Shown: positions 4,994-26,725 of the stretch, in pieces | Position numbering within the stretch: position 1 is the stretch's first letter | Layout: each line of letters starts with the position of its first letter | NCBI GenBank assembly: GCA_029779995.1 | Contig: JAKOZM010000085.1 | Coordinates: 1-49,902 of the forward strand | Length of the DNA stretch: 49,902 nucleotides | DNA from: Actinomycetes bacterium | GTDB lineage: Bacteria > Actinomycetota > Actinomycetes > S36-B12 > UBA10799 | Direction: 5' to 3' | Program-made: the position numbers and the translations under genes | Notes under the pieces: generated by a model | Databases searched by the model: none | What the model saw: the letters and a program-made list of their open reading frames with translations, nothing else | What the model was told of the DNA's origin: nothing

Positions 4994-5395
4994 ATGAAGT
5001 CGGGATTCGCTTGGGGTTATGGCGTCGGCGTGGTTGTCGCCGTTGTATTCGCAGTGATCATCAGCCTCATTCCTTCGGCGATGTTCACCGATCCGGCCGG
5101 CTACGCGGTCCTTCTTCTCATCGCGGTCGTCGCGGCCCCGCCGACGGTCTGGATGCTGCAGTGGGTCGCGCATGGCCGCGGCGTTGACCCGACGTCAACC
5201 GTGGTTGGCGGTATGACAGGCGCCTTGACCTTTGACGGCCTCGCTCTGTCGTACTGGCCGGGTCTGTACGGCCAGACCGGGGAGGCACTCACTGCCGTCG
5301 CGACCATGCTGTTGGTTGCCTTCGCCGGCATCGGCATTGCCGCGCACTTGATGCGGGCCTTGCAGCCTGCGCCACTTGACCCTTCACAAAGTTGA
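4994..5395 (+). CDS. Small integral membrane protein, putative TetR target
   Basis: A 133-residue protein with four predicted membrane helices (about residues 7-27, 37-57, 70-90 and 105-125) and almost no soluble part. ATG at 4994 is chosen because GGAGG (4982-4986) sits at the right distance; the frame extends further upstream only into the operator. It resembles small DUF5367-type membrane proteins, but I am not certain of the family. Its divergent arrangement with a TetR gene and the operator on its promoter suggest inducible expression, for example in response to a small molecule. Confidence 0.65.
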   Translation: MKSGFAWGYGVGVVVAVVFAVIISLIPSAMFTDPAGYAVLLLIAVVAAPPTVWMLQWVAHGRGVDPTSTVVGGMTGALTFDGLALSYWPGLYGQTGEALTAVATMLLVAFAGIGIAAHLMRALQPAPLDPSQS

Positions 5396-5414
5396 CACTA
5401 GCGTCAAGTTTGTG
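5376..5414 (+). promoter_or_regulatory. Leaderless promoter with 30-bp palindromic operator (copy 1)
   Basis: The -35 TTGACC (5376-5381), a 17-nt spacer and the -10 TAGCGT (5399-5404) end 7 nt before the GTG at 5412, so transcription should begin at or next to the start codon. A 30-bp inverted repeat (5385-5414, core TTGACACTAGCGTCAA, only two mismatched pairs) covers the spacer, -10 and start site. The arrangement is reproduced base for base at 9958-9996. Confidence 0.75.
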
Positions 5415-9935: not shown

Positions 9936-9957
9936 AGGCCGACTGGCCAGGATCGGC

Positions 9958-9996
9958 TTGACCACCCACAAACTTGACACTAGCGTCAAGTTCATG
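9958..9996 (+). promoter_or_regulatory. Leaderless promoter with palindromic operator (copy 2)
   Basis: TTGACC (9958-9963), 17 nt, TAGCGT (9981-9986), 7 nt, then ATG at 9994. The core TTGACACTAGCGTCAA (9974-9989) is identical to copy 1 at 5392-5407, and the spacing to the start codon is identical. Flanks CACAAA and AAGTT are shared too. This makes a two-site regulon controlled by one palindrome-binding protein very likely. Confidence 0.75.
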
Positions 9997-11142
9997 AGGT
10001 TCACCGAAGAACACGAGCAGTTCCGCAAGGCCGTCCGGCAGGTGGTCGACAACGACATCAACCCGCACGTGGAGCAGTGGGAGGCGGCTGGGATCTTCCC
10101 CGCCCACCAGGTCTTCTCACAGTTCGCGGCCATCGGTGCTTTGGGTCTGGAGTACGACCCGCAGTACGGCGGCCAGGGCGCCGATCACTCCTACACGCTG
10201 GTCTTCGGCGAGGAACTCGGCCGGATCAACTGTGCCGGTGTCCCGTTGGGGATCGCGGTGCAGGTGGGGATGGCGACTCCGAGCCTGGCGAAGTTCGGCA
10301 CCCATGAGCAGAAGAAGCAGTTCCTGGAACCCGCGATGCGCGGCGAGATGGTGGCCAGCATCGCCGTGTCCGAACCCGATGCCGGGTCCGATGTCGCCGG
10401 CATCCGCACCAAGGCGGTGCGTGACGGCGACGACTGGGTCATCACGGGGCGCAAGATGTGGATCACCAACGGCACTCAGGCCGACTGGCTGTGCCTGCTC
10501 GCCCGCACCTCCGACGAGGGCGGCTACGGCGGGATGAGCCAGATCATCGTGCCCACGCAGGCCCCCGGATTCAGTGTCGGGCGCAAGATCGAGAAGATGG
10601 GCAACCGCAGCTCCGACACCGCCGAGCTCGTGCTTGATGCTGTGCGGGTACCGGTTTCCAACACCCTCGGTGAGGTGGGCCGCGGGTTCCAGCAGCAGAT
10701 GGCGCAGTTCCAGGACGAGCGCCTGATCGGCGCCTACATGGCTGTGGCGAGCATGCGCAAGGCGCTGGACAAGACCAAGGAGTACCTGCGGCAGCGCGAC
10801 GCCTTCGGCAAACCGCTGCTGGCCAACCAGTACCTGCAGTACAAGCTCGCCGAGTTGTACGCCGAGGTCGATCTGCTGCAGGCGTTCTGCCACTCCTGCG
10901 CGCAGACAGTGCTGGAGGGCGGGGACGTGATCCGGATGGCCACGGTGGCCAAACTCAAGGCGGGCCGGCTGCAGCGCGAGGTCGCCGACACCTGCGTGCA
11001 GTTCCATGGCGGCATGGGATACGCCGAAGAGATGTGGGTGGCCCGCTACTACCGGGACGCTCGCCTAACGTCCATCGGTGGCGGCGCCGATGAGGTCATG
11101 CTGCGGGTCATCGCGATGCTGGAAGGGATGGGTCGCAAATGA
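9994..11142 (+). CDS. Acyl-CoA dehydrogenase (Liu/Atu-type branched substrate likely)
   Basis: A 382-residue flavin acyl-CoA dehydrogenase of normal length. FAD/substrate motifs are [18 protein letters not shown] (about 122-139) and WITNGTQADW; the C-terminal helical domain holds FHGGMGYAEEMWVARYYRDAR. At the site of the usual C-terminal catalytic Glu the sequence reads SIGGGADEV, so the base is more likely E242 in FQDERL, as in long-chain and isovaleryl-CoA dehydrogenases. It should oxidise an acyl-CoA to the 2-enoyl-CoA upstream of the carboxylase step (AtuD- or LiuA-like). The ATG at 9994 is set by the leaderless promoter; the longer frame reads through the operator. The stop overlaps the hydratase start (ATGA). 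Confidence 0.87.
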   Translation: MRFTEEHEQFRKAVRQVVDNDINPHVEQWEAAGIFPAHQVFSQFAAIGALGLEYDPQYGGQGADHSYTLVFGEELGRINCAGVPLGIAVQVGMATPSLAKFGTHEQKKQFLEPAMRGEMVASIAVSEPDAGSDVAGIRTKAVRDGDDWVITGRKMWITNGTQADWLCLLARTSDEGGYGGMSQIIVPTQAPGFSVGRKIEKMGNRSSDTAELVLDAVRVPVSNTLGEVGRGFQQQMAQFQDERLIGAYMAVASMRKALDKTKEYLRQRDAFGKPLLANQYLQYKLAELYAEVDLLQAFCHSCAQTVLEGGDVIRMATVAKLKAGRLQREVADTCVQFHGGMGYAEEMWVARYYRDARLTSIGGGADEVMLRVIAMLEGMGRK

Positions 11143-11903
11143 GGTACGAGGTCACCGACGGTGTCGCGACGCTGACCCTTGACAACCCCGACGCCCGTAA
11201 CGTTCTGAACGCCGACACGATGGCGGCGTTGTCCGACGGCCTGCAGCAGGCAGCCGAGGACGCCGCGGTGCGGGTCGTGGTGCTGACCGCCGAAGGGCGC
11301 GCGTTCTGCGCGGGTGCCGACCTCAAAGGAGCCGCGGCCGCAGACTCAGGATCCTTCACAGCGGCGGGACCGCTGGCACTGGTGGCCGTTCTCGAGGAGA
11401 TCCTGGACCACCCGAAACCCACCATCGCGCGGGTGCAGGGCCACGTCGCCGGCGGGGGCAACGGCCTGGTGGCCGCTTGTGACCTCGCCGTGGCGGCAGA
11501 TGACGTGCACTTCGCCTTCTCCGAGGTGCGGGTGGGGGTGGCGCCGGCCGTCGTGAGCGTGGTGTGCCTGGACAAGATGCACCGCCGGGACGGCATCGAG
11601 TTGTTGCTGCTGGGTGAGCGGGTGTCCGCCGAACGTGCGGCCAGCGCCGGCCTGATCAACAAGGCGGTGCCCCGGGCCGAGCTCGACGGTGTTGTTGACG
11701 GGTATGTCGACGCCCTGCGCAAGGGGGGACCTCTGGCGTTGCGGGCGACGAAAGACCTCTTACGCAAGGTGCCCGGGATGGAGCGCACCCAGGCGTTCAG
11801 CTGGACTGCGGAGGCCAGCGCCCACTTGTTCAACAGCGAAGAGGCGAAGGCGGGGATGACGGCTTTTCTGACCCGGCAGCCCGCACCTTGGCTCACTGAG
11901 TAG
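11139..11903 (+). CDS. Enoyl-CoA hydratase family, LiuC/AtuE-like
   Basis: A 254-residue crotonase-fold protein. Oxyanion-hole motifs are AFCAGADLKG (56-64) and GHVAGGGNGL (101-110). The first catalytic Glu of classical hydratases is replaced (NGL in place of CEL), while the second, E129 in FSEVRVGVAPAVVS, is kept. This pattern is that of LiuC/AtuE methylglutaconyl- or isohexenylglutaconyl-CoA hydratases, which fits the carboxylase in the same regulon. It is coupled to the dehydrogenase by an ATGA overlap. Its last 16 codons are duplicated at 12467 on the other side of the repeat array, with six differences, all synonymous. Confidence 0.85.
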   Translation: MRYEVTDGVATLTLDNPDARNVLNADTMAALSDGLQQAAEDAAVRVVVLTAEGRAFCAGADLKGAAAADSGSFTAAGPLALVAVLEEILDHPKPTIARVQGHVAGGGNGLVAACDLAVAADDVHFAFSEVRVGVAPAVVSVVCLDKMHRRDGIELLLLGERVSAERAASAGLINKAVPRAELDGVVDGYVDALRKGGPLALRATKDLLRKVPGMERTQAFSWTAEASAHLFNSEEAKAGMTAFLTRQPAPWLTE

Positions 11904-11960
11904 TCAGCGGCCGCGCTGACTGTGCCCTTGACCCTTGCCGAGCGCATTGCCGCAGACATG
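11855..11960 (+). repeat. Left copy of duplicated hydratase-end/peptidase-start junction
   Basis: This 106-bp stretch holds the true end of the hydratase gene, its stop, and a decayed start of the M20 peptidase (TTG ACC CTT GCC GAG CGC...). It aligns with 12467-12578, where the peptidase start is real (ATG AAC CTC GCC GAG...). The 83-bp array begins immediately after it. The peptidase fragment here leads into the array and stops within about 50 codons. Confidence 0.8.
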
Positions 11961-12466
11961 GCCGGTGGGCACCTCGAGCGGCTGAACTTGTCAGTGGGGC
12001 GTAGGTAGGGTGCGTGGTACTGACAAAACCGCTTGTCCGGTGGCTGTCGGGGAGCCTTCAGCGGTCGAACTTGTCAGTGGGGCGTACGAAAGGTGCGTGG
12101 TACTGACAAAACCCCTCGTCCGGTGGCTGTCGGGGACCCTTCAGCGGTCGAGCTTGTCAGTGGGGCGTACGAAAGGTGCGTGGTACTGACAGAACCCCTT
12201 GTCCGGTGGTTGCAAGGGACCCTCCAGCGGCTGAACTTGTCAGTAGGGCGTACGAAAGGTGCGTGGTACTGACAACCTCTCGTCGGGGACCCTTCAGCGG
12301 TCGAGCTTGTCAGTGGGGCGTACGAAAGGTGCGTGGTACTGACAAAACCCCTTGTCCGGTGGTTGCCGGGGACCCTCCAGCGGTCGAGCTTGTCAGTGGG
12401 GCGTACGTAGCGTGCGTGTGACTGACAAACCTCTGGGCAGGTAGGCCTCCGGGCACCTCCAACCGC
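11961..12466. repeat. 83-bp tandem repeat array 1 (six modules)
   Basis: Six repeats each contain a 39-nt module that begins TTGTCAGT and ends ACTGACAA (one ACTGACAG), an 8-bp inverted repeat around a core such as GGGGCGTACGAAAGGTGCG. Modules lie at 11988, 12071, 12154, 12237, 12307 and 12390, spaced 83 bp except one 70-bp step caused by a shortened linker. Degenerate linker halves cap both ends. The period is not a multiple of three and the frames through it are not conserved, so it is not coding. The same family recurs at 26098-26645. It fills the whole gap between the hydratase and the peptidase. Confidence 0.9.
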
Positions 12467-12578
12467 GATGACAGCGTTCCTGACCCGGCAGCCCGCGCCC
12501 TGGCTCACCGAGTAGTCACTGGCCGCGCTGGGGGAGACTGGTCCCATGAACCTCGCCGAGCGCATTGCCGCAGACATG
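12467..12578 (+). pseudogene. Right copy of duplicated junction: detached 3' end of a hydratase gene
   Basis: From ATG at 12468 the frame reads MTAFLTRQPAPWLTE and stop, identical in protein to the last 15 residues of the hydratase at 11139-11903, with no gene body upstream. The six base differences from the left copy are all third-position synonymous. The stretch then runs into the intact start of the peptidase at 12546. See the left copy at 11855-11960. Confidence 0.75.
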
Positions 12579-13898
12579 CCCCGCATCCGCGCCGAGCTCG
12601 AAGAGTTGGTACGAATCCCGGGCTGCGCCTTCCCAGGCTTCCCCGAGGCGGAGATCGATCGGGCCTGTGCGGCGGTGGTCGGGCTTTTCGAGGCTGCCGG
12701 CTACGCGTCCGTGCGGCGCGTCGAGATCGACGGCGGGGCGCCGGCGGTCATAGCCGAGAGTCCCGGGCCGCCGGGCAGTCCCACCGTGCTGCTGTACGCC
12801 CATTACGACGTGCAACCCGGCGGTGACCCCGACCTTTGGCAATCCCCTGCTTTCGAACCGCAGGAACGGGGCGGACGGCTGTATGGCCGGGGCGCGGCGG
12901 ACGACAAGTCCGGGGTGGTGATCCACGCCGCGGTCATGCGCGCCTTCGACGGCCAACCCCCGTGCACCGTGCGGGTCGTCGTGGAGGGTGAGGAGGAGTG
13001 GGGCGGGCCTTTCGTGGACTATCCGCGCACTCATCCGGAGGTGTTCGCCGCCGACGCCATCGTCGTGGCCGACGTGGGCAACGCGCAGCTGGGCGAACCC
13101 ACGTTCACGACCGCCTTGCGAGGGATGGCTGCGGTGACTGTGGAGTGCCGCACGTTAGAAGGCTCTGTGCACTCCGGAATGTTCGGCGGCCCGGCCCCGG
13201 ATGCGCTGATGAGTCTCATCATGCTGCTCGCGACGCTGCGCGATCCGCGGACCGGCCAGACCACGATCGAGGGCATTGCGGGCTTCGAGTGGGACGGGGC
13301 GCAATACGACGAGCAGGTGTTCCGCGACCTCGCGGGGGTGTTGCCGGATCAGCCGCTGGTCGGTCAGGGCACCGTTGCCAGCCGCTTGTTCTCCGAGCCG
13401 GTGGTGAATGTCACGGGCCTGGATGCCCCGCAGGTCGACGGTGCGATCAACGCGGTGATCCCGCATGCCCGCGCGCGAGTGTCCCTGCGGGTGCCGCCGG
13501 GCCGGGATGCCGTGGCGGCCCGCGAGGCGCTGATGGACCACCTGCGCCGGCATGCGCCCTGGGGTGTACAGGTCAGCGTCACCGCCGAGGCAGTCGGGCA
13601 AGGGGTGCGAGTCGCTACCGATGGTCCGGCTTATGCGGCGGCTCGGGTGGCGATGGAGGAGGCGTACGGCAAACCACCGCAAGAGATCGGGGCGGGCGGA
13701 TCGATCCCCCTGATCGATGCGCTGCGGGAGGCGGTGCCGGATGCCGAGATCCTCTTGTTCGGTGCCCAGGATCCGTTGGCGCGCATCCACGCTCCCAACG
13801 AGAGCGTGGACCTGGCCGAACTGCAGCGGGCTGTGGTGGCTCAGGCCACCTTCATCGAGGAGTTCGCCCGGCACGGAGTCCGAAGGCCGGTCGTATAG
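12546..13898 (+). CDS. M20/M28 family zinc dipeptidase
   Basis: A 450-residue peptidase of the M20 family (CNDP/DapE/PepV-like). Metal and catalytic motifs are AHYDVQPGG (His and catalytic Asp), GRGAADDKSG, the catalytic and metal Glu in EGEEEWG, VVADVGN and a C-terminal HAPNESVDL. A dimerisation (lid) domain inserts at about residues 190-320. It is probably a cytoplasmic di/tripeptidase with unknown preference. ATG at 12546 lies in the right copy of the duplicated junction. It was presumably once the third gene of the dehydrogenase-hydratase unit; the 83-bp array now separates it. Confidence 0.85.
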   Translation: MNLAERIAADMPRIRAELEELVRIPGCAFPGFPEAEIDRACAAVVGLFEAAGYASVRRVEIDGGAPAVIAESPGPPGSPTVLLYAHYDVQPGGDPDLWQSPAFEPQERGGRLYGRGAADDKSGVVIHAAVMRAFDGQPPCTVRVVVEGEEEWGGPFVDYPRTHPEVFAADAIVVADVGNAQLGEPTFTTALRGMAAVTVECRTLEGSVHSGMFGGPAPDALMSLIMLLATLRDPRTGQTTIEGIAGFEWDGAQYDEQVFRDLAGVLPDQPLVGQGTVASRLFSEPVVNVTGLDAPQVDGAINAVIPHARARVSLRVPPGRDAVAAREALMDHLRRHAPWGVQVSVTAEAVGQGVRVATDGPAYAAARVAMEEAYGKPPQEIGAGGSIPLIDALREAVPDAEILLFGAQDPLARIHAPNESVDLAELQRAVVAQATFIEEFARHGVRRPVV

Positions 13899-19028: not shown

Positions 19029-19100
19029 GGGTGTCGTGCCTGCCCCTTGCGCGGGGGACCGTGGTCTGACCGCGCCGCCCCGCGCGTCGTGGCCCATGGG

Positions 19101-19841
19101 CGGTTTCACGCTTGCGCCGATGTGGAAACCGAGCCGTTCGGGGTTGTCCCCAGGGCTGTGGAAACGGGGCCATGGAAATGTCACACCCTCCTCGTAGGTT
19201 TGGGGTGTCACCGAGGTTGGTGGCCGTCAGCTCGTGGAGCGCCGCCGCAGGGGAGCCTTCTTTTCTGGTTTCGGCATGGATCGTGTGGGTGGGGGTGTGA
19301 CTGATGGGGTTCTTTGATATTCCGGCCGGGGCGTTGCGCGCTGGCATTGCCGTGGTGGCCCCTGCACGGTTTCACGCTGCCGCCGATGTGGAAACCGACT
19401 CGTTCGGGGTTGTCCCCAGGGGTGTGGGTCCGGGCGCCCGGAAATGTCAGACCCTGCTCGTAGGTTTGGGGTGTCGCCGAGGTTGGTGGCCGTCAGCTCG
19501 TGGAGCGCCGCCGCAGGGGAGCCTTCTTTTCTGGTTTCGGCATGGATCGTGTGGGTGGGGGTGTGACTGATGGGGTTCTTTGATATTCCGGCCGGGGCGT
19601 TGCGCGCTGGCATCGCCGTGGTGGCCCCTGCACGGTTTCACGCTGCCGCCGATGTGGAAACCGACCCCGTTCGGGGTCGTCCCCATACCTGTGGAAACGG
19701 GGCCATGGAAATGTCACACCCTCCTCGTAGGTTTGGGGTGTCACTGAGGTTGGTGGCCATCAGCTCGTGGAGCGACGCCGCAGGGGAGCCTTGCCCCTGG
19801 TTTCGGCATCGACCGTCGTGGGTGGGGGTGTGTGCTGATGG
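19101..19841. repeat. Three direct repeats (266 bp) of a DUF222 gene leader and start
   Basis: Copies begin at 19101, 19367 and 19633 (CGGTTTCACG). Each runs through a conserved leader (GTGGAAACC, AAATGTCA.ACCCT, TCGTAGGTTTGGGGTGT) to ATGGGGTTCTTTGA at 19304, 19570 and 19838. The first two starts read MGFFDIPAGALR and then pass straight into the next leader, so they are truncated gene beginnings. Only the third continues into a full DUF222-HNH protein. The stretch 19029-19100 contains nothing I recognise. Confidence 0.85.
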
Positions 19842-21049
19842 GGTTCTTTGAGGTGCCGGCGCCGGCGTTGCGCCGCGCCCAGCTGGCTGATGAGTTGCCG
19901 GTGGAGATTCTGCCGGTGTTTGAGGAGTTGTCCGCGCTGGTGCTGGGTCTGCCGGACCCGGCCGAGCTGAGCGTGGAGCAGCGCCTCGGGACGGTGCAGG
20001 CTGCGGCCCGCCTGCAGACGATGCTGGAGGCCTACCAGACCCAGGTCGCCGGGGTGAGCGACGCGCAGCGGGATTCCCGGTTGTTCGCCGCCGGCACGAC
20101 CGGGTCGATGGTGGCCGCGTTGACCGGGAACAATCGGGCCGTCGGCTCAGCGATCGTGGGCCGGGCCCGGGACCTACGGTCCATGCCGCATGTGGCCGGT
20201 GCCTACCGGGCCGGGGAGATCACCGGCCGGCATGTGCACCTGTTGTGCCGCGCCGCCGGGCGCCTGCGGCACTTCCCGGTGTTGGAGCCGGATCTGGTCG
20301 CCGCCGCCGCCGTGATCGAACCGGTGGTGCTGGCCCAGGTGATCGACATACTCATCACCCAGGACCGCCGTGAGGCACCCGATGAGGACCTGCGGGGCGC
20401 CCGGGCCAAACGCGGCCTGCACCTGTCCGATCTGGGTAACGGGCTGTACCGGGTGGACGGGCACCTGGACCAGATCGCCGGGGCCCGGCTACGCGACGCG
20501 CTGGCCTCGTTCACCGACCCGCCCCGCCCTGGGGATGACCGCACCCCCAGCCAACGCCTGGCCGACGCCCTGGACGACCTGGTCAGTGCCGCGCAGGCCA
20601 ACACCCGACCGTTGGGCGTGTCAGGGGTCACGGTGCTGGTCGACGCCGACCAGCTGCCCGACGGGGCCGGTGCCCGCCTGGAGGACGGCACCCTGCTCGG
20701 CCCGGACACCTTCGCGCTGCTCACCTGCACCGCGGTGGTGTCCGTCATCCTCGGGAAACGCCGGGCCGGCAGCTTCATACCGTTGGCGTTGGGCCGCACC
20801 CAGCGCCGCGCCAGCCACGCCCAATGGGCGGCGTTGACGGCCCGGGATCGGGGGTGTGTGCGCTGCGGGCAGCCAGCACGGCGCTGCCACGCCCACCACA
20901 TCACCGGCTGGGCCGCCGGCGGCCAAACCGACGTCGATGCGATGTGTCTGCTGTGCCCACGCTGCCACCGCGACCTGCACAACGGGAGGTTCACCATCGA
21001 GATGGTCGACGGGATACCGCGCTGTGTGCCGGCACGGCGAAGAACCTGA
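19838..21049 (+). CDS. DUF222 / HNH endonuclease domain protein (13E12 repeat family)
   Basis: A 403-residue protein. Residues 1-270 are a helical DUF222 domain (AARLQTMLEAYQTQVAG, AGEITGRHVHLLCRAAG). The C-terminus holds an HNH nuclease motif: CVRCGQPARRCHAHHI, then CPRCHRDLHNG with two CxxC zinc pairs. Family members occur in many near-identical copies in actinobacterial genomes; their role is unclear, with mobility or nuclease activity suspected. ATG at 19838 matches the starts of the two truncated copies upstream; GTG at 19832 is possible. A terminator hairpin follows at once. Confidence 0.85.
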   Translation: MGFFEVPAPALRRAQLADELPVEILPVFEELSALVLGLPDPAELSVEQRLGTVQAAARLQTMLEAYQTQVAGVSDAQRDSRLFAAGTTGSMVAALTGNNRAVGSAIVGRARDLRSMPHVAGAYRAGEITGRHVHLLCRAAGRLRHFPVLEPDLVAAAAVIEPVVLAQVIDILITQDRREAPDEDLRGARAKRGLHLSDLGNGLYRVDGHLDQIAGARLRDALASFTDPPRPGDDRTPSQRLADALDDLVSAAQANTRPLGVSGVTVLVDADQLPDGAGARLEDGTLLGPDTFALLTCTAVVSVILGKRRAGSFIPLALGRTQRRASHAQWAALTARDRGCVRCGQPARRCHAHHITGWAAGGQTDVDAMCLLCPRCHRDLHNGRFTIEMVDGIPRCVPARRRT

Positions 21050-25983: not shown

Positions 25984-26097
25984 GTGATGAGAGTGCCCTG
26001 CTGATCCGTTCTGACACATCGGTCGGATGGTGGATGCGAGCGCTCCGGGCACGCTCGGATAGCTCGGGGTGTCTGTCGGGACGTCCAGCAGCCGAGC

Positions 26098-26645
26098 TTG
26101 TCACTGCGGCGTACATAGAGTGCGTGTCGCTGACAAAACCCCTCGTCGGGTGGCCGCCGAGCACCAGCAACGGCCGGAGGTTGTCAGTGTGGCGTACGAA
26201 GAGTGCGTGTCGCTGACAAAACCCCTCGTCGGGTGGCCGCCGGGCACCAGCGACGGCCGAGCTTGTCAGTACGGCGTACATGGAGTGCGTGTCATTGACA
26301 TAACCCCTCGTCGGGTGGCCGCCGGGCGCCTTCGACGGCCGGAGGTTGTCAGTGTGGCGTACATGGAGTGCGTGTCATTGACATAACCCCTCGTCGGGTG
26401 GCCGCCGAGCACCAGCAACGGCCGGAGGTTGTCAGTGTGGCGTACACGGAGTGCGTGTCACTGACATAACCCCTCGTCGGGTGGCCGCCGAGCACCAGCA
26501 ACGGCCGGAGGTTGTCAGTGTGGCGTACATAGAGTGCGTGTCACTGACATAACCCCTCGTCGGGTGGCTGCCGGGCACCAGCGACGGCCGGAGGTTGTCA
26601 GTGTGGCGCACATAATGCGCCTGTCACTGACAAAACCCTCAGGTG
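26098..26645. repeat. 83-bp tandem repeat array 2 (seven modules)
   Basis: Seven modules at 26098, 26181, 26263, 26346, 26429, 26512 and 26595 are spaced 83 bp (one step of 82). Each 39-nt module begins TTGTCAGT (first TTGTCACT) and ends ACTGACAA or a variant, as in array 1, with a core like GTGGCGTACATAGAGTGCG. The linker differs from array 1 (CCTCGTCGGGTGGCCGCCG) but has the same length. The array fills most of the gap between bkdA and the tetR gene. Frames through it are not conserved. Confidence 0.9.
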
Positions 26646-26676
26646 GTCGGGCATGGGCCAAGTCCCCCCCGCGGCG

Positions 26677-26725
26677 GGCGACTACTCAGCGAGCCAGGTG
26701 CGGGCTTGAGGTAAGAAGAGCCATG
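26677..26725 (-). pseudogene. Decayed 3' end of an enoyl-CoA hydratase gene beside array 2
   Basis: Read on the minus strand this stretch contains AGCCCGCACCTGGCTC and CTGAGTAGTC, matching the hydratase end at 11878-11905 with one missing base and one substitution; an ATGGCTCTTCTTACC further back aligns with ATGACGGCTTTTCTGACC with small gaps. No hydratase body is present. It is the third copy of this sequence in the window and, like the other two, abuts an 83-bp array. Confidence 0.55.

Follow-up and report, generated by a model that had tools for sequence, protein, structure and literature searches.

The window, the whole stretch of 49,902 nucleotides that was analysed, is high-GC actinobacterial DNA, and the closest proteins carrying an organism name were mostly from Candidatus Nanopelagicales (e.g., P0022, 80%, and P0147, 77%), an order that, judged by these source names, is the probable origin of the DNA. 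In this window, an enoyl-CoA hydratase gene and an M20-family peptidase gene lie in the same orientation (+ strand) with a tandem array of short repeats, array 1, in between. The features of this locus and of a second array are as follows.

11139–11903, + strand: enoyl-CoA hydratase gene (ECH_1); its final 15 codons belong to the left junction copy.
11855–11963, + strand: left junction copy, with the hydratase tail, the stop codon, a spacer without GGGGGA, and the peptidase head with TTG for ATG.
11922–12008, + strand: leftover open frame of 28 codons with a GTG start, in which the left peptidase head (MPLTLAERIAADMA...) is read into the first array-1 unit.
11964–12466, + strand: array 1, about six units of ~83 bp with a TTGTCAGT...ACTGACA hairpin in each, one unit being shortened.
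12467–12581, + strand: right junction copy, with a remnant of the hydratase tail, the stop codon, a spacer with GGGGGA, and the ATG and head of the peptidase gene.
12546–13898, + strand: M20-family peptidase gene.
26075–26640, + strand: array 2, seven units with a hairpin family common to array 1.
26652–26706, − strand: third, decayed junction copy, with the hydratase tail, the stop codon, a G-rich spacer, and ATG; it adjoins array 2, and a weaker alignment extends to ~26724.

No gene was found in the interval 11904–12545, for which the ORF list gave only short or overlapping frames. An earlier note on this DNA had placed a duplicated hydratase–peptidase junction on both sides of array 1, and the two copies were recovered at these places (11855–11963 and 12467–12581). 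In a search within the window, the left and right copies showed 82.6% identity over 115 columns, of which 6 were gap columns (E 1.4e-29). The hydratase part of the duplication comprises 15 sense codons and the stop codon, rather than the 16 codons and stop given previously, and both tails encode MTAFLTRQPAPWLTE. The six third-position differences listed for this part were exact, with ACA, GCG, TTC, GCG, CCC, and ACC in the right copy, and all of them are synonymous; five of the six differing codons end in A or T in the left copy and in G or C in the right copy, whereas the sixth shows the opposite trend. The claim that the coding differences are all synonymous holds for the hydratase part but not for the peptidase part, in which the left copy has TTG at the ATG start and ACC instead of AAC at codon 2 (Thr for Asn). 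Codon 3 of the left head differs synonymously (CTT vs CTC), and the two heads are then identical over 24 bases; ahead of the peptidase start, GGGGGA is present in the right copy and missing from the left copy. A Thr at position 2 also occurs in the natural start of the peptidase P0124 (MTLAD..., 87% identical).

Array 1 has a period of 83 bp and 5.6 copies (~500 bp), and all units of arrays 1 and 2 are in one orientation. The predicted hairpin paired in 94.9% of 195 cells, compared with 17.9–56.9% in slid versions, and one array unit folded little better than its shuffles (z −1.37). Compensating change was rejected as evidence that the hairpin has been kept, the covariation being no higher than in shuffles. 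Short open frames pass from unit to unit through array 1 (12010–12421), such as the frame at 12259–12342, which overlaps that at 12333–12410. This frame is open in array 1 but is cut by TAA (GACATAA) in four of the seven units of array 2.

Several identities of the array were considered and rejected. As a known RNA, it gave no Rfam match at the gathering score, and the window held no tRNA; as phage or plasmid sequence, it had no match in plasmids or phages and none in viral contigs (two patterns). As a widespread repeat of the order, it was found in 0 of 166 genomes (≤3 mismatches), in 0 of 7 by DNA search, and in 0 of 110 loci, these searches in relatives having been run without a positive-control genome. 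The palindrome pattern occurred in one of 394 class genomes, at a single site; the pattern ends in ACTGACAA and misses units that end in ACTGACAT.

A promoter-like motif was also observed in the array units. The mycobacterial PafBC/P1 DNA-damage promoter is given as tTGTCRgtg, 8 nt, and TannnT (PMC5656591). Array units carry TTGTCAGTG-N9-TANNNT at positions 11988, 12390, and 26512, one base off the spacing of this promoter. The window held no P1-like match besides these three, compared with 0.01 expected for a spacing of 8–9, and each lies in an array unit and has a 9-nt spacing instead of the 8 nt of P1; the promoter likeness is one of sequence alone.

The meaning of the synonymous pattern was assessed by calculating how often it would arise under random change. 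The synonymous share of random changes was 0.25–0.29, and the probability that six of six changes are synonymous was 0.00024–0.00064 (transition bias 1 to 8). In the left copy, which provides the hydratase gene with its functional 3′ end, synonymous-only change is expected, and the test is therefore informative for the right copy only. What is odd is that the right tail shows no amino-acid change although no gene terminates in it. If four to six of the six changes had occurred on a free right copy, the probability that all were synonymous would be 0.0063–0.0005 (equal rates). If three to six changes had occurred on the left copy, 13–25 changes would be expected on a free right copy vs the 3–0 observed (P ≤ 0.0013, equal rates). 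However the six changes are divided between the copies, one or both tests gave P ≤ 0.0063 at equal rates, these being rough figures from 48 bases and six differences with equal and independent mutation assumed. The previous argument, that a passive duplicate should show nonsynonymous changes too, is incomplete, since it applies to the right copy but not to the left one, which belongs to a functional gene. These results disfavor a clock-like local duplication and suggest that the right tail has been protected or renewed; a local duplication at the arrival of the array may be compatible with the pattern if one copy was later replaced or if the right copy was constrained.

As an outgroup for the direction of change, we used G485 (hydratase 81%), the nearest relative recovered. 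At three of three readable sites (three of the six in total), G485 had the right-copy states (GCG, TTC, and GCG), weakly suggesting that the left copy is the changed one at the three polarizable sites. High GC favors the right-copy codons anyway, so the ancestral look of the right copy carries little weight. That the polarizable changes fall on the left copy, where selection accounts for them, would also suit a simple local duplication of the junction that accompanied array insertion, followed by drift and with the synonymous pattern arising by luck, and another duplicated gene start does exist in the window (19085–19873). We consider this explanation rather improbable, as it leaves the right tail untouched against the rate tests above and, in addition, the third junction copy has acquired indels while the right tail has none.

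This third copy, which the earlier note did not include, is partial and inverted and occupies 26706–26652 (− strand); it borders array 2 on its right side, downstream of a TetR gene. In the BLAST search, it scored 43.7 bits, whereas the best of 60 control sequences (the window shuffled 59 times and reversed once) reached 32.8. An alignment score used earlier was discarded as too permissive (90 for the left copy vs a background maximum of 82, and 98 vs 92 for the right copy). Among the sites that distinguish the left copy from the right, two are readable in the third copy inside the significant match and three in the weaker extension, and all of these have the left base; one further such site falls in a gap of the third copy. 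Like the right copy, it keeps the G-rich spacer and ATG. Judged by their bases, the left and third copies look like one lineage, which would once have had the complete junction. Because the third copy has decayed and the right tail is intact, the right tail has probably not been drifting beside array 1 for an equally long time. The third copy is opposite in orientation to the array-2 units and is present on one side only; the last array-2 hairpin fits the palindrome pattern on both strands, which, as a speculation, might have allowed a reversal.

Other junction matches (E 1e-3; 156 loci, 1.8 Mb) were found in hydratase or peptidase loci only, namely, L095 with the overlapping L130 and L131, L099, and L109. 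The match in L109 was closer to the right copy (94.6% over 37 positions) than to the left copy (85.7% over 42 positions). A TetR homologue was present in 147 of 166 genomes, and none of 20 TetR loci of relatives held a junction copy. The search for an empty site of array 2 was set aside: the E1 gene was beside the TetR homologue in 0 of these 20 loci (flanks ≤1.5 kb, some cut by contig ends), indicating that the neighborhood of array 2 is not conserved anyway.

On the suggestion of the earlier note, relatives with joined hydratase and peptidase genes were sought, and in four genomes the two genes were adjacent without an array. The distance from stop to start was 200 bases in G485, 11 bases in G484, and −4 bases (ATGA overlap) in G329 and G273. 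Among the 11 genomes for which matches to hydratase and peptidase were both listed, four had them side by side, G485 by virtue of a second peptidase cut by the contig end, and the other seven had them on different contigs. The peptidase search gave matches in 18 of 166 order genomes (E ≤ 1e-120), and the hydratase search gave matches in 21 of 166 order genomes (E ≤ 1e-90) and 21 of 394 class genomes (E ≤ 1e-70); the peptidase was present in two of the 26 hydratase loci searched. Side-by-side placement of the two genes is thus not a rule across the order. Three relatives have the two genes closely spaced, and in the fourth, G485, another small repeat has entered the slot; no duplicated junction was found in G485. 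This short repeat, dispersed and different from the array unit, is present twice in the slot (L095:505–657), has inverted ends by eye, and occurs at seven places on five contigs of the G485 genome.

An intact hydratase with the right-copy codons was also looked for in the DNA of relatives. No intact hydratase with either the right-copy or the left-copy codons was found in the DNA of the genomes and loci searched. The closest matches were compared as proteins: of the 37 homologues listed, P0003 (99%) and P0004 (94%) alone end in MTAFLTRQPAPWLTE.

One way in which the right tail could have been protected is by its own use. The 15 codons of the right copy open with an ATG that shares the reading frame of the stop, and they end 30 bases before the peptidase start, so that they might serve as a leader frame handing ribosomes on to the peptidase gene. 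The 4-base gene overlap in G329 and G273 indicates that coupling may be the old state, and the open frames of mycobacterial interspersed repetitive units (MIRUs), for which such a role has been proposed, offer a precedent (PMC12548453). Nevertheless, we regard this explanation as very unlikely, since a leader would not need identical amino acids, no ribosome-binding site was visible by eye ahead of the right-copy ATG, and the third copy has not been kept.

Our preferred explanation, which we hold tentatively and with somewhat less than even confidence, is that the junction was duplicated together with a MIRU/REP-like array and that homologous exchange with a sister strain later refreshed the right copy. 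From the anatomy of the locus, the relatives without the insert, and the grouping of the alleles by left-type bases, we infer an insertion, a copying event with its direction, and an exchange. A tandem hairpin-repeat array would have settled in a formerly tight hydratase–peptidase operon junction, its arrival leaving a ~110-bp junction copy on each side; the hydratase would so have kept its own end and stop codon, and the peptidase would have kept its ribosome-binding region and start. The left-type junction, together with hairpin repeats, would then have been copied next to array 2 and decayed there. The left copy beside array 1 would have evolved as a working gene end, with synonymous changes in the tail and decay of the useless peptidase head. 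Finally, a recent homologous exchange with a sister strain, in which an uninterrupted hydratase still protected the tail stretch, would have renewed the right side as far as the array boundary. Such a donor is a presumed one; diverged strains with the same C-terminus do exist at the protein level (P0003 and P0004).

In the earlier note, the two copies were taken for diverged alleles of a working junction, and this is the best fit to the data, whereas its further suggestion, that the array arrived carrying a foreign junction, is not needed because a local duplication and a later exchange suffice. Against the exchange, three of the five sites that tie the third copy to the left copy lie outside the significant match. 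If two junction alleles truly flank array 1, a recombination tract ends at the array, and strain-to-strain exchange in uncultured actinobacteria would be readable from single contigs.

The same arrangement would be produced if the array were a mobile cassette with a captured left-type junction that inserted into a right-type hydratase tail, replaced the gene end synonymously, and displaced the original tail to become the right copy. Some integrating phages replace the 3′ ends of genes. In the case of prophage e14 in icd, the 3′ end of the gene is replaced by an element-borne, mostly silent version, and the displaced end is found at the far side. The present locus would then be like e14 in its replaced gene end and its displaced end at the far side; unlike e14, it has no integrase or phage genes that we could find. 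A cassette would explain why a junction piece adjoins both arrays, why the left and third copies agree at the readable sites against the right copy, and why the TetR loci of 20 relatives are without a junction copy. It would also suit the left tail, which is richer in A/T-ending codons than the whole gene (GC3 of 0.67 in the last 15 codons vs 0.85), although another 15-codon stretch is even lower, down to 0.60. However, no integrase or transposase was detected by Pfam among 47 ORFs of the window (chosen by codon composition), although such an enzyme could act in trans, and the sole mobile-type nuclease is encoded by a DUF222-HNH gene 7 kb off. Moreover, the third copy is inverted relative to the array-2 units and one-sided, and the array family was not found elsewhere in the genomes, plasmids, phages, and viral contigs searched. 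We consider a cassette unlikely. A broader form of this idea, in which the hairpin arrays of this lineage move without a transposase and with a captured gene-junction module (tail, stop, ribosome-binding region, and start), so that the upstream gene receives a synonymous end and the downstream gene keeps its own start, seems to us quite improbable. If the junction piece did travel with the arrays, this would represent a novel means by which short repeats avoid causing harm.

The contig might also be a misassembly in which the repeat bridges two strains, one supplying the hydratase side and the other the peptidase side. Array 1 is a repeat, and the nearest proteins come from short contigs (the longest of 2862 and 2147 bases). 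Even so, some genome must still have the junction followed by the array and the array followed by the junction, and, to judge from the decay of the left peptidase head, at least the left side appears to be authentic and old. We regard an artifact as an improbable source of the pattern.

Array 1 is similar in kind to MIRU or REP/BIME elements, and the locus was compared with several known systems. MIRUs are units of tens to about 100 bp. They are described as apparently mobile elements that insert at a start codon, with an inner frame coupled at −4 nt to the gene that follows (PMC12548453). Array 1 resembles them in being composed of direct tandem short units between co-oriented genes of an actinobacterium, with open frames running through it, and the 4-base overlap in two relatives is the spacing named for MIRU insertion (PMC12548453). 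In contrast to a MIRU at a start codon, array 1 ends 80 bases before the ATG of the peptidase gene, with a junction copy between. It further differs in the ~110-bp junction duplication at its flanks and in the hairpin of its unit, and the frame is cut by TAA in four of seven array-2 units; the likeness noted here is one of architecture. As for MIRU-like elements, the locus raises the question of how a small array can enter a tight operon without harm to either gene.

REP/BIME sequences are intergenic hairpin-forming units that occur in clusters, with high abundance and alternating orientation. Both arrays are like REP, BIME, and REPIN sequences in their clustered intergenic units able to form hairpins, but their unit orientation is uniform, and no transposase was found in the 47 window ORFs scanned. 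YPAL/RU-2, one of the bacterial MITEs, is described as a small noncoding repeat with dyad symmetry and flank duplications of 3 to 26 bp (PMC2229807). The present locus likewise combines a small dyad repeat with duplicated flanks, which here are ~110 bp long and differ by 17% between copies. Homology-facilitated illegitimate recombination (HFIR) can put the DNA of a diverged strain beside a nonhomologous joint and is reported generally to delete DNA of similar size (PMC3240628), whereas the junction here is duplicated and not deleted.

Two further features of the window were observed. At 19085–19873, tandem units of 266 bp (3.0 copies) lie ahead of the DUF222-HNH gene (19832–21049, + strand). 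Two of these units hold an altered copy of the start of this gene (ATGGGGTTCTTTGA...), pointing to an array formed from a duplicated gene end. In addition, the starts of a biotin carboxylase gene and an acyl-CoA dehydrogenase gene have a common palindromic stretch (5375–5410 and 9957–9992; TTGACACTAGCGTCAA), which we take to be perhaps the operator of a leucine/terpene catabolism regulon.
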